A DNA stretch of 25,133 nucleotides from a virus: the IMG/VR virus record IMGVR_UViG_3300013014_000125, positions 1-25,133 of that record, one strand, 5' to 3'. Numbering within the stretch: position 1 is the stretch's first letter; each line of letters starts with the position of its first letter. Of this stretch, positions 4,393 to 18,881 are shown one piece after another. A program made the translations under genes and the position numbers. The notes beneath the pieces were generated by a model, which was not told where the DNA came from, made no database searches, and worked only from the letters and a program-made list of their open reading frames with translations.

Positions 4393-7300
4393 TTAGAAAC
4401 CAGAGGCGTTTCTTGCCTCAAAATCAATTGAGATAAACTCGGCTGATCTTGTGGGCTGGAGGAAGATCTTTCCTCGGATGGTGTTGTTCTCGATATCTGC
4501 CTGCGTTGTCGTTGTCGTGTCGATCTGGACGCGGTAACGATCAACACCACGCTGCTCCTGGACCTGCTTCATGATCGGGGAGACCGCAGCGTTGAAGCGA
4601 GCGATCGTCGTGTCACGGTTCGGCTCGAAGAGAATCGTGTTAGCCACGGCTCTCACTCGACGACGGACCTCGATCAGGAGTCGACGGACGTTGATACGAT
4701 CGAGTGAGCTTCCCTCGGCGAGGAGAGTACGTTGGCCGTTCACGACTGGTCCGACGCCAGGTGCGGCGACAAGTGGGTTGATACCGACATCGTACACCGT
4801 GTCGACATTCTCGACCAGGAACTTCGTTCCCAGCTCCTCAACGTTGAGCACCGCGCGGTTGTATCCAGCCGGCGCAGTCCACGCGTAACCAAGAGCGTCG
4901 TTCTGGGCGAAAGCTCCGAGAACCGGAACTGAAGCTGGCACGCGCGCTCGACGAGTCGGGTCGGCCGGGAGTCTCATGATCGCGTCGGGGAAGTAAGCAG
5001 CTCCGAACGAGTTGTTGAGACCACGACCTGTGAAACGGGTGGTGGTGTACGAGATGTTAACGGGAGGATACGAGCTAGCTGCGAGAGATGACGTGATGAA
5101 GTTATTCTGCGAGTCCTTGTGCTCAACGTCCATGATGTAGAGCGCATCGAATCGTGTCTGCATCGCCGCGAGCGCGTAGTCGGTGACAGCCGGATGGCGC
5201 TGACCCGGGATTGCAAGAAGATGAACATCGGCGAATGACTTCTCACCCATGATATCGACAGCCTTCCTGTAGGCAGCGACCGTGGGGCCTGACAGACCGC
5301 CCTGGTTCGCGTTGTCCATCTCACGACGTGCAGCTGCGTCAGTCATGCGGAACTTATTCGAATCGAAGATGTTCGAACCATCGAATCCGCCCTGCATGAA
5401 CGTCGTGAACTTCAGGTAGCTTCTCACTGCAGCGCTGGAGAAATCATTCGGAGCGACAACAAACTTTCCACCAGCCGAGCTGTCAATGACGCCATCACGC
5501 TGGTAGACAGCCTCATCCCATCGTGTGCTGTCGACCAGTCCGTCCGAGCCTGTCTGGACCTGAACTCTCTCAAGGGTGAAGCGGTTATTGTTGAATCGAT
5601 CCGCGTCAAGGATCGAACCGCTCACGTCTGCAACTCCAGCGTTGTCACCGACCCAGGGGTTCTGGTAGGAGGTGTGGAATCTCGGGAAGTACTTCGTCTG
5701 CTGGACGAGAGAAGCATCACGGGTCGCCGCAGTGGTCGTTGAGACGCCATCGTTGGGGCGTGCGACAGAGTTTGCGGTGTCGAACTGCACACCCCAGTAG
5801 TACTTGCTCTCTCCGACAGCTGTGGTGGCGCCTGCGGCCCCGCCGACGTTGATAGCACGCCTGAACGGAATGGGCGGCTGACGAGCTCCTGTGGTGGGAA
5901 CGTTAAGATGGGCAGAGGGGCCCACGCTTCCAGTTGAGAGGAAACCAGTCCCAGCTGTCACGAGGTGGTAGTGACCGCGGAACCCAACGGGGAGGGAGTT
6001 GACAGGAACAATCTTATCGACCACGTCATCGGCGAGCTCAACGCGAACTCTCTGGGACACCTTCCCGTAGAGACCCTCTTCAACTATCTTCTGCGATCCA
6101 ACCGCACGATCGAAATCGTAGTAGGTGTTGAGATCGCCGATCTTCTTTCCTACGAAGTTGTCGCTGTCAGGATCAAGATCACAGTCGAGATAGGACTCGA
6201 GAACGATAGGAGAATCATCCGTGTCATTCCAGTCGCGAATCTCGACGGTGAACTTGCCGTAAAGACCCTCGGTTGTAGGAGCTTTGATGTTCTTTATCGA
6301 AACCTTATAGAGGTTATTGGCGAAAGCGCCGTCAGAACGAGCGTGGATCTTGAAGAGGTCCTTCGGACTGCCGCCTTGTGAGATGAAAAACGGCGTGGAA
6401 GGGTGTGTGAATCTGTCCTCAAAGTTCTCATAGTTCGGGAAGACGGAGGTACCGTTGTTGTAAGCCTGCGAACCTGATAGGCAGAAAGCGACTTCTTCAA
6501 TCGCAACAGCGGTGCTTACACGACGTAAGGTAGCTTCAGCTGCGATTCCTGAACCTGTAACCGCAGCATACGCGTCGAAGATATCATAGTGAGAGTAGAG
6601 CACGTAACCCGCTCTCTCGATAGCAAGGGGATCACGATTGAATGTGTTAGCGAAATAACCCTGATCCTTAGGATTGAATGATGCCGTGAGGATGCTGGGA
6701 TACTCAGCCGAGTCAGTGTGACCGTTGAGGAAGAGAACGAAATCCTGCTTTCCGCTACGCAGATCGACAGACCCTGTGAACCATCCCTTCGAGGGTGAAG
6801 CTCCCACTGGATTCGTGCCGTACGTGTCCGACGTCACACCCGGAGCGGAGCTCGAGAGAGTGATCTGCACACCTGACGCGACCATGAGCACGCCACGGAT
6901 GATGGGGGCTGCAGCAGTCGAGGTCTGGATTCCAGATTCTGAGAAGACCCAGGATCCAGCTGACTCTGACATGTAGCAACCGAGGAAGTAGGTTCTTCCG
7001 TTTGTGCCGCCGGCGACTGCATTCGGATTATTTCCGAGCTGACCGCTTCCAGCTTGCACCTGCTGCGAACCAACAACGAAACCTGCGTTCGTTACTTTGC
7101 CGTTGTTGGTTCCTGGATTGGAGCGCTTGCTTCCATCTCCGACGCCGAGGACGCGAACGTAAGTTCCCGCCGTAGCATTGCGTAACCACTCGTTGAGGGC
7201 GAGGGGAGCGAACACATCCGCGTCCGCGCTCCCAAATTCCCTGCTGAACTGTGAATTGTTGGCGAATGAGACAGGGACGAATGCAACGCCCTGATTCGCC

Positions 7301-7395
7301 GTTCCAATAACACCAGCTGCGCGACCGGTCGGCTGTGCCTCGACCACGCCACCTGTGCTGTCAATCTCCCTAACGCTTATGCCTGGGGCTGCCAT
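4393..7395 (-). CDS. 18: Tail sheath protein, gp18-like (downstream paralogue)
   Basis: This gene encodes 1000 residues. The N-terminus (APGISVREID, GVIGTANQGVAFVP, LALNEWLRNATAGTYVRVLG) and C-terminus (SSLDRINVRRLLIEVRRR, TILFEPNRDTTIARF, GKIFLQPTRSAEFISIDFE) line up closely with the upstream sheath gene. The central ~650 residues are more divergent and beta-rich, with many Gly, Ser, Thr and Asn residues. AGGAG lies 6 nt before the ATG. It lies directly upstream of the tail tube gene, the T4 position of gene 18, which slightly favours it as the gp18 counterpart. It could mix with its paralogue in one sheath, occupy a distinct zone, or act in place of it. No frameshift or internal stop is seen, so both copies appear functional. 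Confidence 0.91.
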   Translation of the reverse strand: MAAPGISVREIDSTGGVVEAQPTGRAAGVIGTANQGVAFVPVSFANNSQFSREFGSADADVFAPLALNEWLRNATAGTYVRVLGVGDGSKRSNPGTNNGKVTNAGFVVGSQQVQAGSGQLGNNPNAVAGGTNGRTYFLGCYMSESAGSWVFSESGIQTSTAAAPIIRGVLMVASGVQITLSSSAPGVTSDTYGTNPVGASPSKGWFTGSVDLRSGKQDFVLFLNGHTDSAEYPSILTASFNPKDQGYFANTFNRDPLAIERAGYVLYSHYDIFDAYAAVTGSGIAAEATLRRVSTAVAIEEVAFCLSGSQAYNNGTSVFPNYENFEDRFTHPSTPFFISQGGSPKDLFKIHARSDGAFANNLYKVSIKNIKAPTTEGLYGKFTVEIRDWNDTDDSPIVLESYLDCDLDPDSDNFVGKKIGDLNTYYDFDRAVGSQKIVEEGLYGKVSQRVRVELADDVVDKIVPVNSLPVGFRGHYHLVTAGTGFLSTGSVGPSAHLNVPTTGARQPPIPFRRAINVGGAAGATTAVGESKYYWGVQFDTANSVARPNDGVSTTTAATRDASLVQQTKYFPRFHTSYQNPWVGDNAGVADVSGSILDADRFNNNRFTLERVQVQTGSDGLVDSTRWDEAVYQRDGVIDSSAGGKFVVAPNDFSSAAVRSYLKFTTFMQGGFDGSNIFDSNKFRMTDAAARREMDNANQGGLSGPTVAAYRKAVDIMGEKSFADVHLLAIPGQRHPAVTDYALAAMQTRFDALYIMDVEHKDSQNNFITSSLAASSYPPVNISYTTTRFTGRGLNNSFGAAYFPDAIMRLPADPTRRARVPASVPVLGAFAQNDALGYAWTAPAGYNRAVLNVEELGTKFLVENVDTVYDVGINPLVAAPGVGPVVNGQRTLLAEGSSLDRINVRRLLIEVRRRVRAVANTILFEPNRDTTIARFNAAVSPIMKQVQEQRGVDRYRVQIDTTTTTQADIENNTIRGKIFLQPTRSAEFISIDFEARNASGF

Positions 7396-7428: not shown

Positions 7429-10400
7429 TCAGACGAACTCGACGCCCGCCGGGGTGATGATAAAGTCAACCGCGATGAATTCGACGGCGCGGGTGGGAAC
7501 GAAAACTATACGACCGTTGAGCCTGGACGCTGCAACATCAGCCTGGGTGTTGTTCGTTTCATCCATGACGATTCTGAACTGCTCGATTCCAGCCTGAGCA
7601 CGCACGAGATTCAGAAGGGGAGTCGCCTGTTCGATGAAACGCTGACGTGTGGTCTTGTCGTTCGGTTCGAAGATAAGACCGCGTGCCACCGCAGCGATGA
7701 CTCTCTTGAGCTCGAGGAAGAGACGGCGGACGTTGACGCGATCTAGAGCCGACTTCGAGAGCTGCAACGTCTTCTGACCGAAGATGACGAATCCGCTTCC
7801 CGGGAATGTGCCGATCGGATTGATGTTTGCCTCGTAGAGACTGTCACGATCCGCAGTGCTGAGACGAACCTCAACGTTCGAGACGAAGTCGAGAGCCCCC
7901 CTGTTGAATCCAGCAGGAGCATACCACGGGTAAGAGACCTTATCACTGTAGGCAAGAGCCCCGAGCGCCGCGATGGACGCAGGAACCTTCACACGCCGCG
8001 TCGACGCTGCATCATTAACGTATACATCCGGGAAGTAGGTGGCTACGTAATTGTTGTTGATTCCGCGCGCGGTGAAAGCGTCTATCGTCTTGGAGACGTT
8101 AGGACGACCAGTCGAATCGTCGAAGAGCCTGTTGTTGTTATCATCATACGCAGGTGAATCCATGACGTACATACCGTATGCATAGGAATCGAGGCGACGA
8201 CTGACGTAATCTGTGATCAGGGGATCCTTGACACCCGGGATGGCCATCATGTTGACGTTGACAGTCAGCTTATCAGTCATCATACGGGCTGCGGCGCGGT
8301 AGGAGTTGACCGCGTTGTTCGCGAGCTCCTCACCACCAGCGTTGTACCCAAGCCCCGAGGCAGCAATCGCAGCAGCCCCAGGCGCCGCGCGGCCACCGAC
8401 GTCCGCCGAGGTGGCACGGTCACCGAGGAGCGCAGCAGCTTCGTCGAACACGTTGACTCCATCGAACCCTCCGTAGAACATCGTGGAGAATTTCGCGTAC
8501 TCAGCGAACTTGTTGAACGTCTGCGCTGAACCTGAGAGGAGGGAGGCGAATGTCAAACGATCGAGAGATGCTCCAGCATCGTTGATCCTGTAATCTGTAG
8601 TGCTGGGCACTCCGTTCCTGATGTAAGCAGCTTCCCTGATGTGAGACTCGACTGTGCCCGTGATATCAGATAGTGTCTGGTTAGAAAGAGCGACCCTGGC
8701 GAGCGTGAACTTGTTCGCGTTGAAAGCGTCCGCGTCGGATCCGGTGACCAGGGCATCGAGCTTCTCTATTCCCTGCATCTTCGCGTATGACGTTATGAGG
8801 GTGTTAAACTCAGTTCCAGCGTTAGCGTTCATGACGGAGTTGGAAACGGAACCCGTCGAAGCGAGCTTCTCGAACTTGACGCCCCAGTAAAGCCGGGAGT
8901 CCGGAGTCTCGAGAGGGTCGGCAGCGCCGATGTAGTTCACGCCAGCGAGAGCGCCCTGGGTGACCTTGAACCTGAAGGGGAGGGGAGGAACGATCGCGGA
9001 ATCAAGCGTGCTGAATGAACCGGACCCAGCAAGTCTCGTAGCACCGCCTGGAGTTCCGTAGGCGCGCCCACCGAGAGAGAGCGTCGCAGCGGTGTCGGTG
9101 AGGGTCTGGGTCGTTCTGACGACAGGAATCCCCCTGAATCCGAAGGGAAGCGCGGAGGCAGGAACAAGGCCTGAGTCCAGCTGCGCTGAGGGAACGACCC
9201 TGACACGACGGCTCACGTTCGGGTAGCGACCGTTCACCTGCAGGCGACGTTCCGACTCATCCGTAGCGTCGAAGTTGAAGGTCACCTTCTTGTCACCGAC
9301 CTTCTTCGCGATGAAGTTCGCGCTGTTGGGATTGAGGTCGCAACCGCCGTAAACCTCAAGGATTCTCGGGTTTGTGTCAGTGTCATGCAGGTCTCTGACA
9401 ATGACGTCGAAAGTTCCGTACGGGTTTCTCGGGTCCACAGAGGCCCTGACATTCGCGATTGAGACTTTGCAGACATCATTTGCGCCGACGCCATCGGAGA
9501 GAGTCTCGAAGTTGAAGAGATCGTACTCGGTCGAACCGTAGGGCTGGGAGATGATTGCTGGCGTGCGAGCGTTCGAATAGCGCGCGTCGAACCTGCCGAA
9601 ATTCTGGAGATTTGCTCCGGATCCCGAGAGGATCGCGACCTGATTCATGCCTGAGACATCGATTCCTGTAAGCTCATCCTCAACGGTGAAATCGAGGTAG
9701 AGGCAGTGCTGCTCTTCCTGGAGTCGACGAGGATCCGTGTTCAGAACTTTTCCGAAGTAATCCGAGGAGCGAGGGTCGAGAGAAGCGGTGACAATACGCA
9801 GGCCATTGACGCCATCAGTGGAAGAGAAAGTTGAACCGAGCGATGAAGAGATAGCGAACTTAAACTTCTTGTAAGTCGAAGAGCTGCTGTTGAGGTCCGT
9901 CGAAGCTATGTCATCTAGAGCAGCTCCTGTCCCTGACCACGCTGCGCCAGATCCCGTCATGTCCAGAAGCATCCCGCGAGCCCCCGTGGGGAACATCAGG
10001 ACGCCTCGAACGATGTTCAGCGTGTCCGCGCTGCCCGGGTTGAAGCTTGGGTTGTCACTGAAGACCGGAAATCCCTTCCATTCTGATGGGACAGTTGTAT
10101 TAGCCGGTAGGACGTGACGGGCAGCGAGAAACTGCACCGTGTTCGTCTTACGAGAGTCTCCAGCAGGGACGCCGACAGCAGAGCCGGTGACCTTGAACCC
10201 AGCGTTTCTTACCGTCCCCTGCGAAATTGTGGTGTTGAAATCTGACGTGCTGGCGTTGGCACCGGCGCCGAGGACCCTGATGAAGGTCAGGGAGCCCTTG
10301 TGCTTCAAAAATTCATTCGCGGCGTAAGTTGCAGGGAACTTGGGATCAAGCCCACCGAAGCGTGCCTCGAAGTCCGAGAATGATGAGACCGTGGTGGGGA

Positions 10401-10527
10401 CGAAAGCGGGGCCTGCGACTGCCGCGCCGATGAGACCACCCGGCACGCCCGTGGGCTGCGTGCCTGGGGCGGCGAGTTCAATCTCCTGCTCAAAGAAACC
10501 GGGAGAGCGGAAGGTCTGTTCGGACAT
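7429..10527 (-). CDS. 18: Tail sheath protein, gp18-like (upstream paralogue)
   Basis: This gene encodes 1032 residues, much longer than T4 gp18 (659). Sheath subunits form the contractile helix around the tube. The N-terminus (SPGFFEQEIELAAPG, then GLIGAAVAGPAFVP and FIRVLGAG) and the C-terminal domain (SALDRVNVRRLFLELKR, GLIFEPNDKTTRQRF, GRIVFVPTRAVEFIAVDFI) carry the conserved sheath core. This C-terminal fold, together with the N-terminus, makes the inter-subunit mesh in T4-type sheaths. The middle (about 110-750) is rich in Ser, Thr, Gly and Asn and probably holds surface insertion domains. AGGAG lies 7 nt before the ATG. The next gene is a clear paralogue with the same two conserved ends. 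Which of the two is the main sheath cannot be told from sequence. Confidence 0.9.
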   Translation of the reverse strand: MSEQTFRSPGFFEQEIELAAPGTQPTGVPGGLIGAAVAGPAFVPTTVSSFSDFEARFGGLDPKFPATYAANEFLKHKGSLTFIRVLGAGANASTSDFNTTISQGTVRNAGFKVTGSAVGVPAGDSRKTNTVQFLAARHVLPANTTVPSEWKGFPVFSDNPSFNPGSADTLNIVRGVLMFPTGARGMLLDMTGSGAAWSGTGAALDDIASTDLNSSSSTYKKFKFAISSSLGSTFSSTDGVNGLRIVTASLDPRSSDYFGKVLNTDPRRLQEEQHCLYLDFTVEDELTGIDVSGMNQVAILSGSGANLQNFGRFDARYSNARTPAIISQPYGSTEYDLFNFETLSDGVGANDVCKVSIANVRASVDPRNPYGTFDVIVRDLHDTDTNPRILEVYGGCDLNPNSANFIAKKVGDKKVTFNFDATDESERRLQVNGRYPNVSRRVRVVPSAQLDSGLVPASALPFGFRGIPVVRTTQTLTDTAATLSLGGRAYGTPGGATRLAGSGSFSTLDSAIVPPLPFRFKVTQGALAGVNYIGAADPLETPDSRLYWGVKFEKLASTGSVSNSVMNANAGTEFNTLITSYAKMQGIEKLDALVTGSDADAFNANKFTLARVALSNQTLSDITGTVESHIREAAYIRNGVPSTTDYRINDAGASLDRLTFASLLSGSAQTFNKFAEYAKFSTMFYGGFDGVNVFDEAAALLGDRATSADVGGRAAPGAAAIAASGLGYNAGGEELANNAVNSYRAAARMMTDKLTVNVNMMAIPGVKDPLITDYVSRRLDSYAYGMYVMDSPAYDDNNNRLFDDSTGRPNVSKTIDAFTARGINNNYVATYFPDVYVNDAASTRRVKVPASIAALGALAYSDKVSYPWYAPAGFNRGALDFVSNVEVRLSTADRDSLYEANINPIGTFPGSGFVIFGQKTLQLSKSALDRVNVRRLFLELKRVIAAVARGLIFEPNDKTTRQRFIEQATPLLNLVRAQAGIEQFRIVMDETNNTQADVAASRLNGRIVFVPTRAVEFIAVDFIITPAGVEFV

Positions 10528-13720: not shown

Positions 13721-15514
13721 TTACTTGCCTTTTGAAGCCTGCCTCTTCAAAGCTTCATAAAGGACCTTCGAGATAGGATAGGTTCTTGAATCCTGAACCT
13801 TGCCGTATTCATTCTTCAGGATTTTCCAGTACTTCTCTTTCATCTCAGGCGAGAGAGTATGCGGAAGAAAATCATCGAAACTCTTCCTGTCATCATTTTT
13901 TAGAAACTCTCGCATCTTAGTTCCTGAGATCTGCGTTGTCTCGATTCTCGGAACCGCTCTTGGTCTCAATTTTTCAATGACGATAGGGTCTTTGACAGCT
14001 GCCGCCAACCTATCCTGGGAGTACTTACCCCTTATGTCCTCATCATCAGCGTAGAAAACGAAGCTGCTGACTATGTTCTTGAGCTCGCGCATCTTATCAA
14101 TTGCGAGGGTGACCGGAGATTCAGAGGTGATGAGAAGCGTCGCGTTAGGATAATCACGGTGAAATTGGGGTTCAAGAACAACGCGCCAAGCGTCTATCAT
14201 AACTCCAGCAGGAAGCTCGTCACGACCTGCCGTCGAAGTTATAACGAGAACCTCATCGCATTCTTTTGTCGCGAGATCGATAACTCTCCAGTGACCATCA
14301 TGAACCGGCTTACCCGATACCACGAAAATTCCAAGAGTGAAACCCGTCTTTTCGCCGATTTCCAAGCGCTTCATGACGCGGCTCTTTGTCGTCAGGAAGA
14401 GGTCCTCCTGGCGTTGGATCAGAGACTTCGGGTGAGCGAGACTTCCTAACCTATTTGATATCGAGGAATCGAAGTAGCACTTGTTCCTGATCATGTTGAG
14501 GATGCTGTCGAGCTCAGACTCAGGCACATTCTTGCGGGCCTTGAGCCCTGATTCATGAACGATCTCACTCGCAATCGCTATAATAGTGTCCCAGTACGCC
14601 TGCTCCTGCTGCGGGTCCTCAGCTCGAAACTTGCTCTTCACGTCCGTGCGGTGCTCAACATCATGCTGGTCGAACCGAAGAGCTTTGTAGAGAGTCTTCG
14701 CCATAGAGGGCTTGAAAACTGACCCTTCTGCAGATGAAGTCTCCGTGTCAGTGGACAACGTAGTATCGAAATCAGAGAAAATGTCGTAGAGAGATTCGAT
14801 TATCTTGATAGGACGATCAGGAGTCGAATCATCATAAGCTGCGCGGAGAGAGTCCATCGAGTTCTCGATTTTTCTTCTGACACCTGCGCTTTTAGTTCCC
14901 CTGAGAAGACCATCTATCGTCCCGAGATTTCCCTCGAAAAGAACTGGATACGTTCTCACCCCTAGCAGCTCAGCGTACTCGGTAAGAGCTGCATCATCAT
15001 CGGCCGGTGCTATATTCGAAACCAGCTGGCTGCCTGTAATCTTGTAGCGTGTTGGACCGAAGAGCGTCAGGAACAGACCATGCTTCTGGGGATAATCCCT
15101 GCTGATCGTAGGCTTTCTCTGGACAAATTCGAGAAAGAACTCGGTTCCCTGCGGAATAGTAGCAGTGTCCGGATGAACCCTAGCCATGTGATCATGCACG
15201 AGCGAGTACTGGGCAACTCCTGATGACTTCTCACGAACTTCCTTTTCCCTGCCGGAAAGCCCCCGAGCTTCTCCCGGGAATATGACGTTTCCCTTGTAAG
15301 CTATAATCCAATTTTTGGTGTAATCGCTCGGGTCAAACTCATTATTTCTGCGGATGAGAGTCAGCTTCGTGCCGTCTATCTTCTCTTCGATCTTGATGTT
15401 AGGGTCTCCAAGAAAAGCAGCAGCTTTCGCACGATCATTGGCGCGGGCTCTCGGCGACGTGCCAGCACGAGCCATCGAAGACTTAAGATCATCTATCGAA
15501 ATGTTGGTCGACAT
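13721..15514 (-). CDS. Fusion of ligase-like adenylyltransferase domain and HxGH (NMNAT/NadR-like) domain
   Basis: This gene encodes 597 residues. The N-terminal half carries nucleic acid ligase motifs in order: motif I EEKIDGTK with Lys45 as nucleotide-accepting lysine; EFFLEF (motif III, 125-130); GLFLTLFG (IIIa-like); EGSVFKPS (motif IV, 263-270); and a lysine-bearing motif V candidate near 273-277. The C-terminal part has FVVSGKPVHDGHW with HDGH at 405-408 and ISGTKMR at 529-535. These are the HxGH and ISxTxxR motifs of nucleotidyltransferases such as NMN adenylyltransferase. Likely activities are RNA or DNA end-joining plus NAD or other nucleotide-conjugate synthesis; neither substrate is proven. 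The second ATG of the ATGATG pair is chosen because GGGAG is 5 nt before it; the first (15517) adds one Met. The gene is coupled to the nucleotidyltransferase gene upstream and lies 27 nt before gp13. Confidence 0.87.
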   Translation of the reverse strand: MSTNISIDDLKSSMARAGTSPRARANDRAKAAAFLGDPNIKIEEKIDGTKLTLIRRNNEFDPSDYTKNWIIAYKGNVIFPGEARGLSGREKEVREKSSGVAQYSLVHDHMARVHPDTATIPQGTEFFLEFVQRKPTISRDYPQKHGLFLTLFGPTRYKITGSQLVSNIAPADDDAALTEYAELLGVRTYPVLFEGNLGTIDGLLRGTKSAGVRRKIENSMDSLRAAYDDSTPDRPIKIIESLYDIFSDFDTTLSTDTETSSAEGSVFKPSMAKTLYKALRFDQHDVEHRTDVKSKFRAEDPQQEQAYWDTIIAIASEIVHESGLKARKNVPESELDSILNMIRNKCYFDSSISNRLGSLAHPKSLIQRQEDLFLTTKSRVMKRLEIGEKTGFTLGIFVVSGKPVHDGHWRVIDLATKECDEVLVITSTAGRDELPAGVMIDAWRVVLEPQFHRDYPNATLLITSESPVTLAIDKMRELKNIVSSFVFYADDEDIRGKYSQDRLAAAVKDPIVIEKLRPRAVPRIETTQISGTKMREFLKNDDRKSFDDFLPHTLSPEMKEKYWKILKNEYGKVQDSRTYPISKVLYEALKRQASKGK

Positions 15515-16914
15515 CATCTCTCCCAGATTATTGATTCTAAGATTCGATTGAGCTTTCTTCGTCTGGATTCATCAACCTGTACCTGGTCAGTGTCTTCTAC
15601 GAAACCCTCCTGACCACGCACCTTGTATCTGGAGTAGAAATCTTGCTTTAGGGCTTTAAGATCAACGGTGGACGATTCAGCGTCGGTAAGAGTTTCCCTG
15701 AAGACATCGAGTATTCTGTCCTTTACCGAAGCGTCCTCTTTGGGGTCAGTGGCTGATAGCTGCTGACCGCGCGCTCCGAAGAACCTGTCGACCATCTCCT
15801 CGTAAATCTTGACGATCTCAGGTGGGCTCATCCGCTGCTTCATGATCTTAAGGAGACCTGTGAATGACCCAAGATTATGAATATCTTCCTCAGCAGGTGA
15901 GGATTTTTCACCAAATATATTCATAAAAATTTCTTTTAGGTCACGGGTGGAGTCCGTACGCTCCACACGCTTTAGGTACTTGTAAACCTCATCGCCGTTG
16001 AACTGCCAGTCAAGCTTCTTGTACCTGCTTCCTAGACCGGAGACAAGGTCGAATGAGCGAAGTGGCCTGACCTGGGCAGGCACCATCTGACCTGTAGCTG
16101 GATCGCGAGTCTGCTTGACTCTTGGCTTTTCAGCAGTAGCAGCTGGCGTTGACTCGCGAGCGTTCAAGGGTGGGGGAGACATAACCGAAGCGAGGGACAT
16201 GAGAAGAATCTTGTGAGCCAACCCCTTCACTCCCTGGGATATATCCTGCCACGATGAGGAGTAGGAGAACTTTGCCCATTCCGTCGGACGTCCTTCCCTG
16301 TACTCTGATCCCTCAAAATCAATCTGGAAGAATGTGTCACCCTCACCCTCCGGTGCTGCTGGGTCCCATGTGTAGGAGAAGAGCGCGTTTATCTGGTGGG
16401 ACCCTGGGCTCTTCTTGTTGTGGCCGATGTAAGAGATCCTGTCTGTGAGCCGCTGGTCCTCACGACGATTTAACGTGGAGAACAGCATATCCATCTTCTC
16501 GGCCGGCAGCGTGAGGTCGATATCACCCACGGTCGGCTTGTACTTGATGAACTCCTCATCCGAGAGTGTGGCAGGAGGTGCGAAAAGATGTGCCGATGAA
16601 CCGTTGAAAGCGAATCCAGACCCGAGAATATCATCGCGCTGAGATGGATCCCATATCGGATCACCATGATCCCTCTCGAACTCCGAATCCAGAACACGTA
16701 GCATCTCTATGACATCTTCTCTGAGCTGCCGGCGGTCTATCCTTCCGCTTCTCAAATCTATCTTCTCAGCAGTCGCCTCTCGTCCGCGGAATCTCTTGAT
16801 CGACTCAGGGCCCTTGACCAATCCCGTCTCTGGATCTCTGACCAGAGCTCTTGTGTTGCCACCCTCGTTGAGTGATTCATCGGAACCGAACATGAAGTGT
16901 GAGATGCTGAACAT
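15514..16914 (-). CDS. Putative Pol-beta-fold nucleotidyltransferase
   Basis: This gene encodes 466 residues from the ATG at 16914. The signature of the nucleotidyltransferase superfamily is visible in order: FNGSSAHLF (the hG[GS] motif, residues ~104-112), VGDIDLTL (Asp131 and Asp133, the D-h-D pair) and FFQIDFE (Asp199, the third acidic residue). The spacing from GS to D-h-D is longer than usual. The stretch PTEWAKFSYSSSWQDISQGVKGLAHK follows and looks conserved; the rest is charged and helical. The substrate is unknown; tRNA, other RNA, protein or small molecule are all possible. The frame also opens at 16980, but that ATG lies before the capsid terminator, so it is rejected. ATG 16914 and ATG 16893 both lack a good ribosome binding site, and 16893 would fit the promoter-like octamer better. 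The stop overlaps the ligase-fusion start by 1 nt (TGATG), so the two are coupled. Confidence 0.75.
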   Translation of the reverse strand: MFSISHFMFGSDESLNEGGNTRALVRDPETGLVKGPESIKRFRGREATAEKIDLRSGRIDRRQLREDVIEMLRVLDSEFERDHGDPIWDPSQRDDILGSGFAFNGSSAHLFAPPATLSDEEFIKYKPTVGDIDLTLPAEKMDMLFSTLNRREDQRLTDRISYIGHNKKSPGSHQINALFSYTWDPAAPEGEGDTFFQIDFEGSEYREGRPTEWAKFSYSSSWQDISQGVKGLAHKILLMSLASVMSPPPLNARESTPAATAEKPRVKQTRDPATGQMVPAQVRPLRSFDLVSGLGSRYKKLDWQFNGDEVYKYLKRVERTDSTRDLKEIFMNIFGEKSSPAEEDIHNLGSFTGLLKIMKQRMSPPEIVKIYEEMVDRFFGARGQQLSATDPKEDASVKDRILDVFRETLTDAESSTVDLKALKQDFYSRYKVRGQEGFVEDTDQVQVDESRRRKLNRILESIIWER

Positions 16915-16923: not shown

Positions 16924-16947
16924 TATGCGCTTTACGGGTGAAGAGAC

Positions 16948-16977
16948 AAAAAAGGAGCCACCCCAAAGGGTGGCCCC
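16948..16977 (-). terminator. Intrinsic terminator after the major capsid gene
   Basis: Read on the minus strand, a 7-bp GC-rich stem (GCCACCC / GGGTGGC, tetraloop TTTG, with extra flanking G-C pairs) is followed directly by a run of six T residues. It lies 26 nt past the capsid stop, the textbook arrangement for a Rho-independent terminator. Confidence 0.9.
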
Positions 16978-17003
16978 CACTAGAGCCCTACGGCCCTACA
17001 ACA

Positions 17004-18881
17004 TCAGATGATGTTCATGTCGAGGCAGGTGACCGTTCCGTAGAAGTCGGAGCGGACCATCTTCTTGCCGTAGCGGGTCATCACGCCCTTACGCGGGGTG
17101 AAGTCCTCAGGCGCGAAGATCGTCGGCGTGACAATCAGCGGGACGTACGGAGCGTAGACGTAGCCGGTCTCGAGGTAGGAGCCGCCCTTGAAGCCGACGA
17201 GGATCTTGTTCCTGGGGAAGTAAGGATCCTTGTAGACCGTGAAGCGGTTCGAGAGCGTTCCGACCTTCTCAGCGCCGATCGAGAACGGAGCGCCGACCTG
17301 GCCGGAGCCGTCGATGCTGTAGCTCGGACGGTAGTAGGTACCTGCCTCGAGGATCGTCGCGACGTCCGGACCGACCACGATGAAGTTCGCGGAGCCGCGA
17401 AGCGTCTTGCGGTGGATCTCGTTGCCGACGTCGATGATCGTCTCGGTGAGAGTCTCGTACCACTCGCGGACAGTGCCGGTGAACATCGGACCGATGTTGC
17501 CAGCGCCGCCGGTCGTCTGGTAGTTACCGGTGGTCTTGTTGACGAACTTGCCCGGAGCGCGGCTCCAGAAGTAGTTCGCGCCCGAGGCCTGCGTGAGGAG
17601 GTCGTTCAGGATCTCGCGGTCGAGCTCGAGAGCAATCTGCTCGGAGAGGATCTGGGTGAGCTCAACCTCAGCGTCGATGCTGTGGTAAGCGTTGAGATCC
17701 TGCGCGAGCTCCGGGGACCAGCGAGCGCGGAGCTTGCGGGTCGTCGCGGTGACGGCGATGGACTCGATCTTGATGTCGATCTCGGGGATGACCGGGGAGG
17801 GATTCGTGCCGAAGTTCGACTCGAAGACCGGGATGGTCACGGTGGAGCCGGTGGATCCCTCAACGTCGAGCACCGAAGCAATCGGGTAGCTGACGCGGAA
17901 AGCATTGACGAGGGGGCCGAGGGCGTGAGCGGCGCTTGTGGCCGGGATGACCATCAGAACGTGCGTGCCCGAGAGCGGGGTCGGGGTGAACGCCGTGCCG
18001 CTCCAGGAGCCGAGCTGGTTGAGACGACGGATGTTGACAACGCCGTTGCCGCCCTGGAACGCTTCGCCCGGAACCCCGTAACCTGTGATGGTCGACGCGG
18101 TCGTGAAGAGCGCGATGTCCTTGACGAGCGACTGGTCGATGGAGGACGAGACCGCGCCGAGGGGAACGATAGCGAACTTGAAGGTGGTGCCTTCCTCGAC
18201 CGCGGTCGTGACCTGGGGATCGAAGCCTATGAGACGGCCGTCGGTACCGGAGGTGAAGATGAAGCTGCCAAGCGCGTCGCTGAAGGCCCCCGCACCGAGG
18301 AAGGATCCTGTTGCTGAGAGCTGGACAAGTGACGATCCGTGGACACGGCTGTAGGCTGTGCCTGCGAGATCGTACATACCACCCGTTGCGATTGATCCGC
18401 TCTGGACGCCCTTACCGACCGGGTTGTTGTAGATCGACTGACCAACAGAGTAGGTTGCCTTTGTCGACGCGGTGCCTTCGCCGTCAACGCCGGACGCCCC
18501 ACCGCGGTTGTTACCGTAGGTGTAGTCCAGGTAGAAGAGGAGGCCGGAAGGAAGGCTCATGGGCTGGATCGAGACAAGCTCGTTCGCCACGAGGCCGCCG
18601 AAGACGCGGCGGACGATGGGGAACGCGATGTTCGAGAAGCCGCGGATGTCGCCGCCGCCGGACGCCGTGCTGCCGCCGCCTGACGAGAGAGCGTTGCTCT
18701 CGCGGAGGAGGTTAGCAGTCTGGTTCTCGAGGAGGCGCGCCATGTTCTCACGGTTGACGCCATCGAGACCACGGAGGAGACCGGTGCGGTTCCACTTCTC
18801 GACGAGGCGGCTGTTCTCAGCGCCCACGTCACGCCCGCGGATTCCCTCGGCGAGCTGGTCTAGTGTGAAAGTCTTAGACAT
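17004..18881 (-). CDS. 23: Major capsid protein, gp23-like
   Basis: This gene encodes 625 residues (T4 gp23 is 521), the HK97-fold hexamer subunit. Diagnostic segments are FPIVRRVFGGLVANELVSIQ and PMSLPSGLLFYLDYTYG near residues 86-120, and the C-terminal region with LDREILNDLLTQASG and the ending YGKKMVRSDFYGTVTCLDMN, typical of T4-type capsid proteins. The N-terminal ~61 residues form the expected removable delta domain: MARLLENQTANLLRE ends at L59-R60-E61, an (L/I)-x-E site close to the T4 cut after residue 65, and is followed by a Ser/Gly-rich linker. The middle (about 120-330) is Gly/Ser/Thr-rich and longer than in T4, probably an enlarged insertion domain. GGAG lies about 10 nt before the ATG. 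A strong terminator follows the stop, which suits a highly expressed gene. Confidence 0.96.
   Translation of the reverse strand: MSKTFTLDQLAEGIRGRDVGAENSRLVEKWNRTGLLRGLDGVNRENMARLLENQTANLLRESNALSSGGGSTASGGGDIRGFSNIAFPIVRRVFGGLVANELVSIQPMSLPSGLLFYLDYTYGNNRGGASGVDGEGTASTKATYSVGQSIYNNPVGKGVQSGSIATGGMYDLAGTAYSRVHGSSLVQLSATGSFLGAGAFSDALGSFIFTSGTDGRLIGFDPQVTTAVEEGTTFKFAIVPLGAVSSSIDQSLVKDIALFTTASTITGYGVPGEAFQGGNGVVNIRRLNQLGSWSGTAFTPTPLSGTHVLMVIPATSAAHALGPLVNAFRVSYPIASVLDVEGSTGSTVTIPVFESNFGTNPSPVIPEIDIKIESIAVTATTRKLRARWSPELAQDLNAYHSIDAEVELTQILSEQIALELDREILNDLLTQASGANYFWSRAPGKFVNKTTGNYQTTGGAGNIGPMFTGTVREWYETLTETIIDVGNEIHRKTLRGSANFIVVGPDVATILEAGTYYRPSYSIDGSGQVGAPFSIGAEKVGTLSNRFTVYKDPYFPRNKILVGFKGGSYLETGYVYAPYVPLIVTPTIFAPEDFTPRKGVMTRYGKKMVRSDFYGTVTCLDMNII

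Follow-up and report, generated by a model that had tools for sequence, protein, structure and literature searches.

A phage-borne ligase-HIGH adenylyltransferase fusion protein and its overlapping Pol-beta-like partner as a candidate nucleic-acid end-repair module

Genes at the locus

The window analysed here is the whole 25,133-nt stretch of IMG/VR virus record IMGVR_UViG_3300013014_000125. It holds two overlapping genes, F1 and F2 (Table 1), of which F1 lies two genes from gp23, within a T4-like structural (head-neck) gene cluster. F1 opens with ATG; F2 is unannotated and shares 4 nt (ATGA) with the start of F1. A preliminary description had placed the end of F1 at 15514, which omits the first of two ATGs at its start, so that residue numbers given there are one lower than in the 598-aa numbering used below. 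The motifs it named are all present, with the lysine at 46, HDGH at 406-409 and ISGTKMR at 530-536.

F1 is a true ligase-like/HIGH fusion protein: the earlier claim that a ligase-type domain is joined to an HxGH adenylyltransferase in one polypeptide is borne out by motifs and predicted folds, and PHROG 27149, a family of unknown function, covers both halves (residues 29-428, E 3.1e-23). Judged by its position, the helical linker between them may take the place that the C-terminal domain has in T4 Rnl2. Synonymous change in F1 is close to saturation while pN/pS is 0.18-0.31, and F1 is therefore under purifying selection.

Table 1 Features of the F1/F2 locus (positions in the window; aa, amino acids).
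Feature	Position	Strand	Basis
F1, ligase-like / helical / HIGH-adenylyltransferase fusion protein, 598 aa	13721..15517	-	ORF, predicted helices, AlphaFold model, fold matches
F1 residues 1-300, predicted covalent nucleotidyltransferase (RNA-ligase-like) domain	14618..15517	-	Foldseek 2hvr E 6.2e-8 (whole F1 model) and motif conservation
Motif I EKIDGTK, nucleophile Lys46	15365..15385	-	K46 in 46/46
Motif III EFFLEF (E126, E130)	15125..15142	-	E126 44/46, E130 46/46
Motif IV EGSVFK (E264, G265)	14711..14728	-	46/46
Motif V LYKAL, K278; Leu in place of second Lys of KxK	14678..14692	-	Tally at position 280
F1 residues 301-388, all-helical linker	14354..14617	-	Predicted helices; its own profile finds relatives
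F1 residues 389-573, predicted HIGH-superfamily adenylyltransferase domain	13799..14353	-	VIA-align Z 13.3 to PPAT 1gn8; NMNAT 4yp6 E 2.1e-5
HDGH motif (406-409)	14291..14302	-	H409 56/56
ISGTKMR motif (530-536)	13910..13930	-	S531 54/56, R536 40/56
F2, Pol-beta-superfamily-like nucleotidyltransferase, 466 aa	15514..16914	-	AlphaFold pLDDT 85.6; VIA-align Z 7.4; conserved D131, D133, D199
F2 NGSS motif (G105, S106)	16594..16605	-	G105 and S106 each in at least 90% of 28
F2 catalytic-type DID (D131, D133)	16516..16524	-	28/28
F2 QIDFE, third acidic residue D199	16312..16326	-	28/28
Intrinsic-terminator-like hairpin between gp23 gene and F2	16953..16978	-	Consensus match only

The ligase-like half of F1

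The N-terminal half of F1 has the KxDG of motif I, motifs III, IV and V in order, and a predicted ligase fold, as in the covalent nucleotidyltransferase superfamily. We compared 46 distinct ligase domains (window copy counted), leaving out nine matches shorter than 230 residues (L010, L011, L012, L036, L037, L038, L048, L049 and L094) and one weak match (L133). K46, D48, G49, K51, E130, E264 and G265 are kept in all 46 and E126 in 44, while K278 is kept in 45 of 45, the one gap being the broken gene L050. Position 280 in motif V, the second position of the Rnl2-type KxK, is Leu in 26, Gln in 12, Val in three, Ile in two and Thr in two of these 45 domains and never Lys; a KIK occurs in L048, outside this set. 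At the sequence level, the ligase and HIGH motifs of F1 go beyond chance.

Profile searches of both halves, proposed earlier as a check, agree on the families through weak matches, Pfam RNA_ligase and NCBIfam cyt_tran_rel both scoring below their cut-offs. RNA_ligase matches F1 at residues 43-271 (E 0.0076) with 16.8 bits against a cut-off of 27, which is why we do not file F1 as a member of the Rnl2 family (PF09414), and it is found in 5 of 27 relatives (best 2.2e-5; scan at E up to 0.1). Solved ligases match F1 in sequence only below threshold (RLIG1, E 0.84). A Foldseek search with the AlphaFold model of full-length F1 ranked T4 RNA ligase 2 first (2hvr, prob 1.00), with low TM-scores despite the strong E value (0.37 by target with an rmsd of 24 for 2hvr; 0.54 for the ligase domain 1s68). 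With all motifs present, sequence and model identify the N-terminal half as an RNA-ligase-like covalent nucleotidyltransferase. An ATP-independent ligase, proposed on motif V alone, was demoted as a candidate, since MthRnl and RLIG1 are natural ATP-dependent ligases with a single motif V Lys.

The HIGH domain of F1

For the C-terminal half we aligned 56 distinct HIGH domains, without ten weak matches (L038, L049, the L051 and L088 fragments, L104, L115 and L128-L131). Position 406 is His in 36, Thr in 18, Ser in one and Asn in one, and R536 is substituted in 15 of 55. Several lineages show TxAH or TKDGH-like forms in place of HxGH. An early suggestion that the HIGH active site is degenerate in Vibrio and Campylobacter phages was softened, as TxGH is the form of the motif seen in PPAT and the second His is kept throughout. 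The predicted fold aligns with PPAT 1gn8 over 151 residues (rmsd 2.7), NMNAT 4yp6 is among the Foldseek matches of the F1 model, and by fold the domain is equally close to PPAT and NMNAT/NadD. PHROG cytidyltransferase matches at 403-578 (E 2.9e-7) and cyt_tran_rel with E 0.015; CTP_transf_like was found in 9 of 27 relatives (best 1.7e-8; scan at E up to 0.1). A PPAT/NMNAT fold combined with a (H/T)x(G/A)H motif and an invariant second His marks residues 392-570, as judged from sequence and model, as a HIGH-superfamily adenylyltransferase.

It had been proposed that F1 makes or recycles NAD+: the HIGH domain would act as an NMN adenylyltransferase and restore NAD+, perhaps starting from NMN that the ligase domain sets free when it uses NAD+. 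Both motifs (HxGH and ISGTKMR) are consistent with this, as are weak profile matches to NMNAT and its presence among the Foldseek matches, yet the proposal is not supported. NMN adenylyltransferase cut-offs in NCBIfam are not reached (13.6 bits against 341 for nadR, 11.5 against 181 for archaeal NMNAT), and the HxGH motif is itself replaced in several lineages. NAD+-ligase families gave no match to F1 at E up to 1, and just 45 residues precede Lys46. A NAPRTase/NadV (nicotinamide phosphoribosyltransferase) gene was found in 3 (X1, Moby and G009) of 22 F2-bearing records, the 22 including several fragments. In Xanthomonas phage X1 and Stenotrophomonas phage Moby, an NMN adenylyltransferase is annotated as a gene of its own, next to NAMPT or one gene away, and the HIGH gene of the module lies elsewhere, with ligase-like and Pol-beta genes; this Pol-beta-like partner has no obvious role in NAD+ synthesis. 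On the NAPRTase count and the X1 and Moby gene layout we rejected NAD+ salvage as the main reading, and consider it unlikely.

The Pol-beta-like partner F2

F2 lies outside the coordinates covered by the preliminary description, which overlooked it; it is the larger finding and the strongest clue to function. The Pol-beta catalytic set GS...DhD...D is present in F2 (28 sequences), and the best VIA-align rows of its model are Pol beta, mu, lambda and TdT, with Pol beta aligned over 207 residues at an rmsd of 4.6. The Z of 7.4 is below 8, in the tool's ambiguous range, and the best Foldseek E is only 0.038. F2 belongs to PHROG 19290 (function unknown). Pfam Pol-beta families matched none of 26 F2 members at E up to 0.1, a sequence-profile search of the PDB returned nothing relevant and no similarity to any solved Pol-beta enzyme, and P0006 as an F2 query found no relative among viral contigs.

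The enzymes matched by the F2 fold act on DNA, which counts against an RNA substrate. A DNA repair module is thus one alternative, in which a Pol-X-like polymerase and a ligase, with nuclease-like and kinase-like segments in places, would mend gapped or broken phage DNA, perhaps that of the packaged virion. The position of the window copy in a head-neck gene cluster would suit such a role, as would a possible PD-(D/E)xK-like gene or domain that by inspection is added in some lineages. Against it, the top ligase fold matches are RNA ligases, Pfam RNA_ligase is the sole nucleic-acid ligase family that matches, and a gp30-type DNA ligase is already present in CP220-type phages according to the part of the CP220 source available (PMC2853527). 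We regard this alternative as rather unlikely.

Pairing, fusion and distribution

F1 and F2 occur together. From the F1 side, 29 of 35 loci hold F2, and the remaining six have less than about 650 nt of upstream contig. From the F2 side, 124 loci were collapsed into 57 lineages at 80% identity: F1 is in the same locus in 37 of these, always on the same strand (37/37) and with a gap of at most 10 nt in 26. Three more lineages carry ligase, HIGH and F2 fused in one chain, and other F2 lineages have a HIGH or ligase gene as neighbour. The search for a ligase near F2 came up empty in L104 and L110/L111/L118, and the L076 and L082 fragments hold no F1. In a search of 50,697 cultured phage records, 21 matched F1, 22 matched F2 and 19 matched both; in phage IBB_35 the genes are on different contigs, and CP220 retains both about 65 kb apart.

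The same parts are joined in several ways. Full three-enzyme fusions measure 954-958 aa (L117, L119, L120, L122) or 1300 aa (L121, L123, L124, L125), and a single 1919-aa chain in L134 runs F2-ligase-HIGH-HD. In L115 and, by motif, L128, a ligase adjoins an F2-HIGH fusion. Unfused arrangements are the ligase-HIGH-F2 order of L132 and the F2-U-ligase-HIGH operon of X1 and Moby. Motif order, spacing and operon place are all that link the X1/Moby-type ligase genes to the F1 ligase domain, their profile comparison not being significant. Among 84,980 species of bacteria and archaea, a pattern-limited F1 scan gave one match, on a 5.8-kb MAG contig.

Genomic neighbourhood

A calcineurin-like phosphoesterase is present in the loci of 21 of the 57 F2 lineages (within three genes in 19 and within two in 18), and L089 has a kinase-like N-terminus (AAA_33, E 0.016, sub-threshold). 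In the window's own clade, neither phosphoesterase nor kinase was found beside F1. By its motifs, L121 has a putative second Pol-beta-like domain; sequence searches of the PDB found nothing relevant for the kinase-like and extra Pol-beta-like segments. Assignment of P0003 and the L093 N-terminus to PD-(D/E)xK nucleases was set aside as a pattern only, hhalign between the two not being significant. PADLOC gave no match for eight proteins.

Twelve of the 22 F2-bearing records carry tRNA genes, and the window's nearest long relative has 19. Rnl1 is also encoded in 7 of 22, including Va1, CP220, X1 and Moby; ordinary sealing is therefore already available there, and a further task has to be assumed for the module. 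The earlier placement in a structural operon is true of the window's clade, whereas L013 has the same genes among apparently non-structural ones, by inspection. The available part of the IBB_35 virion proteome names neither F1 nor F2; its 25 unnamed proteins are itemised only in a supplement.

The placement of the module among late structural genes in the window clade could also suit three nucleotidyltransferases that attach nucleotides covalently to a protein or small molecule, whether capsid, host target or cofactor, with no relation to nucleic acids; all three folds are known among small-molecule or protein modifiers as well. We consider this very unlikely, because ligase, Pol beta, phosphoesterase and kinase together have been described as a set for phage RNA repair: in the available parts of two reports, combinations of Pol-beta (RlaP), ligase, kinase and calcineurin-like phosphatase are given that interpretation (PMC7824862; PMC9503650).

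Discussion

On balance, we favour the reading that F1 and the overlapping F2 belong to a single phage-borne module for nucleic-acid end repair, whose target is most likely RNA and probably tRNAs cut by host defence nucleases. It builds on the gene structure, the domains recognised from motifs and predicted folds, the conserved active-site residues, purifying selection, the pairing and the repeated fusion. The RNA substrate, the order of steps, the anti-defence role and the activity of the HIGH domain are what we infer in addition.

In the proposed sequence, the 3' and 5' ends would be healed first, a task falling in some lineages to the calcineurin-like phosphoesterase encoded nearby, in one to the fused P-loop kinase-like segment and otherwise to other enzymes. 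F2, as a Pol-beta-type nucleotidyltransferase, would put back nucleotides missing at the 3' end. The F1 ligase domain would then take AMP from ATP onto Lys46, pass it to the 5'-phosphate and seal the break. The HIGH domain could be a third nucleotidyltransferase acting on this RNA: it might serve to recognise tRNA, as in TmcAL, or it might adenylylate a phosphate end.

A variant of this last option divides the labour differently: F2 would fill gaps beforehand, the HIGH domain would adenylylate the RNA 5'-phosphate to AppRNA, and the ligase domain would mainly perform the last step. HIGH-superfamily relatives join AMP to phosphomonoesters, and F1 motif V is without its second Lys, like engineered T4 Rnl2 K227Q. 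We give this split mechanism a low probability; it is weakened by MthRnl and RLIG1, which also have a single Lys in motif V and self-adenylate with ATP. If true, it would be a new route of RNA-end activation with a natural AppRNA-dependent ligase.

For the end-repair module as we favour it, the counter-defence role suggested earlier is plausible against RNA cleavage, and strengthened by the present analysis. An RNA-end repair cassette of this kind would be present in many phage lineages, those of Campylobacter, Vibrio, Xanthomonas and Stenotrophomonas phages and dozens of uncultured ones, where current records mostly call the proteins 'hypothetical protein' and the HIGH part 'cytidyltransferase'. 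Phages could then rebuild RNAs short of an excised nucleotide, where simple ligation fails; the wobble-excising tRNase RloC, according to the portion of its report available, is a case of nucleotide removal from tRNA (PMC2610378). That HIGH adenylyltransferases are repeatedly joined to ligases raises the enzymological question of which substrate is adenylylated, and the cultured hosts make the module directly testable. Our literature search found no paper describing a ligase-HIGH fusion; Burroughs and Aravind 2016 could mention it.

Comparison with known systems

T4 RNA ligase 2 (gp24.1, rnlB), the best Foldseek match of the F1 model, has the same order of motifs I, III, IV and V, and rnlB is also in the head gene region, adjoining gene 24 on the opposite strand. 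F1 differs in its extra HIGH domain, its Pol-beta-like partner, its Pfam score under the cut-off and its one motif V Lys, where Rnl2 keeps K225 and K227 in 6/6. Closer in motif V are RLIG1 (C12orf29), with the single Lys K253, and archaeal MthRnl, with K246 and T248 replacing the second Lys; both self-adenylate with ATP and seal RNA, and the available text of their reports mentions, unlike for F1, no HIGH domain or Pol-beta partner (PMC11494293; PMC3514331). RlaP, the RNA ligase-associated Pol-beta nucleotidyltransferase, resembles F2 in context, accompanying phage RNA ligases in the part of the report available (PMC7824862), whereas F2 falls in PHROG 19290, and none of the 26 F2 members scanned matched a Pfam Pol-beta family. 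Phage NadM and NadR carry a Nudix or kinase fusion, as far as the accessible text describes them (PMC9503650), and the F1 HIGH domain a ligase-like one. Its fold and its (H/T)x(G/A)H and IS(G/A)(T/S) motifs are common to NadM, NadR, PPAT and TmcAL. Bacterial Pnkp unites kinase, calcineurin-type phosphatase and ligase in one protein, and comparable activities are gathered in some F1/F2 lineages; the F1/F2 module differs in being phage-borne, in consisting mostly of separate genes and in adding Pol-beta-like and HIGH enzymes.

Gene order and identity of the two enzymes

The window is a 25 kb uncultured-virus fragment of a T4-like phage, carrying the gp23 capsid gene (Pfam E 6e-75), a neck protein gene (PHROG head-tail adaptor, E 1.7e-12) and, by Pfam and PHROG, genes for a gp21-type protease, the gp20 portal end, a gp18 sheath and a gp19-type tube. 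Two genes on the same strand separate gp23 from the neck gene: F2, a Pol-beta-superfamily-like nucleotidyltransferase, and F1, the ligase-like/HIGH protein, with the F2 stop and F1 start sharing an ATGA overlap. The ATG tabulated for F2 is most likely its start, rather than GTG 16980, since close relatives open with the same MFSI-type sequence; the GTG falls inside a terminator-like hairpin. Two adjoining sheath-like proteins are very long (1000 and 1032 aa); the second matches gp18 families and the first is similar by eye. A 459-aa open frame antisense to gp23 is probably a base-composition artefact.

Features in the window and in related loci (L-numbers)
Feature	Locus	Position	Strand	Remark
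F1	window	13721-15517	minus	ORF of the preliminary description
F2	window	start at ATG 16914	minus	most likely start
First long sheath-like protein	window	4393-7395
Second long sheath-like protein	window	7429-10527
Frame antisense to gp23	window	16938-18317	plus
Extended F1 ORF	L029	6004-8961		986 aa
Four-domain ORF	L134	1808-7564		1919 aa
Three-domain protein	L121	3262-7161		1300 aa
Gene/domain beside F2	L065	5678-6682
Gene/domain beside F2	L135	4818-5762

The preliminary description had placed a ligase-type domain and a HIGH adenylyltransferase in one F1 polypeptide, and the AlphaFold model, Foldseek and motif conservation establish this as a true fusion. The best Foldseek match of the model (pLDDT 85) is T4 RNA ligase 2 (2hvr; E 6.2e-8, 392 columns, TM-score by target 0.37; 0.54 for 1s68), followed by NMNAT (2.1e-5), PPAT (4.0e-5), TmcAL (7.4e-5) and Naegleria RNA ligase (1.8e-4). 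VIA-align superimposes residues 392-569 on PPAT (Z 13.3, rmsd 2.7 over 151 residues) and is uninformative on the ligase half, since all its rows cover the HIGH half. The relative placement of the halves is uncertain because of the low pTM (0.64). F1 motifs are almost completely conserved among relatives. The longer F1 ORF of L029 resembles a fusion to the downstream segment and could be a genuine fusion or a lost stop.

By its motifs, F2 is a Pol-beta-like enzyme: G130, D131, D133, Q197, D199 and E201 are invariant in 28/28 sequences, and GS at 105-106 is kept in at least 90% of them. Its predicted fold is probably Pol-beta-like as well, the best 50 VIA-align rows being Pol beta, mu, lambda and TdT (Z 6.6-7.4); Foldseek matches have weak E-values, the best being 0.038 for TdT. 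Pfam and NCBIfam gave no match, and F2 belongs to PHROG 19290, of unknown function (E 7.7e-35).

Pairing across uncultured loci

F1 and F2 form a module. A profile search from the F1 side yielded 35 loci, 29 with F2; in the other six (L012, L036, L037, L038, L048, L049) less than about 650 nt of contig remains upstream. From the F2 side, 80 of 92 confirmed places were taken into the locus set, and F2 is present in at least 124 loci, many overlapping, which represent 57 lineages at 80% identity. F2 precedes F1 in 35 lineages and follows it in 2; 3 have one-chain fusions, 2 F2-HIGH fusions (L104, L115), 4 F2 with a separate HIGH match (including L050), and 11 were scored by script as lacking F1. 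Adjacent pairs share a strand in 37/37 cases, with gaps of 10 nt or less in 26. In L050 both genes are split into two ORFs, through decay or sequencing error.

Among the 11, L114 and L116 have a ligase gene of the Xanthomonas phage X1 type nearby, and L128 a ligase-like gene (by motif) adjoining its F2-HIGH chain; in L134 both ligase and HIGH lie within the F2 chain itself. The contig ends at F2 or within about 150 nt in L108, L109 and L113; L099 is of the Campylobacter type, with F1 located elsewhere, and L107, a close relative of L093, has F1 elsewhere in its contig. No F1 match was found in the fragments of L076 and L082 (55.6 and 43.5 kb), and the search found no ligase in L104 and L110/L111/L118.

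Neighbouring genes and additional domains

A calcineurin-like phosphoesterase (L013 copy: Metallophos_2, E 3.7e-9) occurs within the loci of 21/57 lineages, adjoining the module in 10 and lying within two genes in 18 and three in 19; it is farther off in L044 (7 genes) and L016 (17 genes). By a rough estimate, if a phage genome of ~200 genes has a single such gene, this proximity would arise by chance only a few times per hundred. Loci of 11/57 lineages contain gp23-like genes, and the window's clade (gp23-F2-F1-gp13) has no phosphoesterase or kinase next to the module.

In L089 a P-loop kinase-like segment (sub-threshold match) is fused to F1. The single L134 ORF joins F2, an X1-type ligase, a HIGH-like domain and HD_4 (E 2.2e-17), followed by about 750 residues of unknown nature. 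The L121 protein carries ligase, HIGH and F2 domains, and its segment between HIGH and F2, with GSG, GDIDIQL and VQVDL by inspection, looks like a second Pol-beta nucleotidyltransferase. In L065, L135 and the N-terminal 445 residues of L093, a gene or domain beside F2 has a D..V.....S.K pattern reminiscent of PD-(D/E)xK nucleases.

Occurrence in cultured phages

With tblastn of 50,697 phage records, F1 was found in 21 and F2 in 22, counts that include several GenBank/RefSeq duplicates of one phage: 15 Campylobacter and 6 Vibrio records each, plus Xanthomonas X1 for F2. In CP220 the two genes are about 65 kb apart, so their joint presence does not reflect linkage alone, and part of it comes from the shared ancestry of these related phages.

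In X1 the genes are unfused and overlap in an operon, F2-U-ligase-HIGH, where U stands for the second gene. The X1 HIGH protein matches the F1 HIGH domain (hhalign 97.4%). The motifs also follow one another in order in the X1 ligase-like protein, which reaches just E 0.05 in direct comparison with F1 and is a relative of the ligase part of the L134 chain (tblastn E 7e-5, all phage records). The profile match of this X1/L134 group to the F1 ligase domain is not significant (hhalign probability 3.5%); motifs, spacing and place are what tie the two together. The four-gene order recurs in Stenotrophomonas phage Moby, whose F2 is diverged (HMM 68.8 bits). No significant similarity was found between the X1/Moby pair of genes with the PD-(D/E)xK-like pattern and the L093 N-terminal domain. 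For the module's HIGH gene in Menderavirus Stenotrophomonas phages and X1, annotations conflict among records: hypothetical, cytidyltransferase, nucleotidyl transferase, nicotinamide-nucleotide adenylyltransferase and, once, ADP ribosyltransferase.

Possible functions and comparison with known repair sets

Judging from the F2-bearing records searched and from phages X1 and Moby, NAD+ salvage, proposed in the preliminary description, probably does not explain the HIGH enzyme. By analogy with TmcAL, a tRNA-modifying HIGH enzyme among the F1 fold matches, the domain may recognise RNA; alternatively, it may adenylylate a phosphate end, which the one-Lys motif V would fit, as it also fits ordinary single-Lys ligases. 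Among 22 F2-bearing viral records, several of them fragments, 7 encode Rnl1 elsewhere and 7 have AAA_33 kinases, so canonical repair in those records has no need of the module. No tRNA genes were found in 10 of the 22, most of these being fragments. DNA may also be a substrate of the module.

The component enzymes are of known kinds; in the literature searched, which excluded a key 2016 survey, neither their three-enzyme combination nor its fusions and spread were found. The phage RNA repair sets of two papers include ATP-grasp RNA ligases, kinases, phosphatases (of calcineurin-like type in a few sets) and Pol-beta enzymes (RlaP), for which the restoration of lost nucleotides is predicted (PMC7824862, PMC9503650). 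The module has most parts in common with these sets; what it adds is the HIGH enzyme, which in most lineages stands beside the other two or is fused to them.
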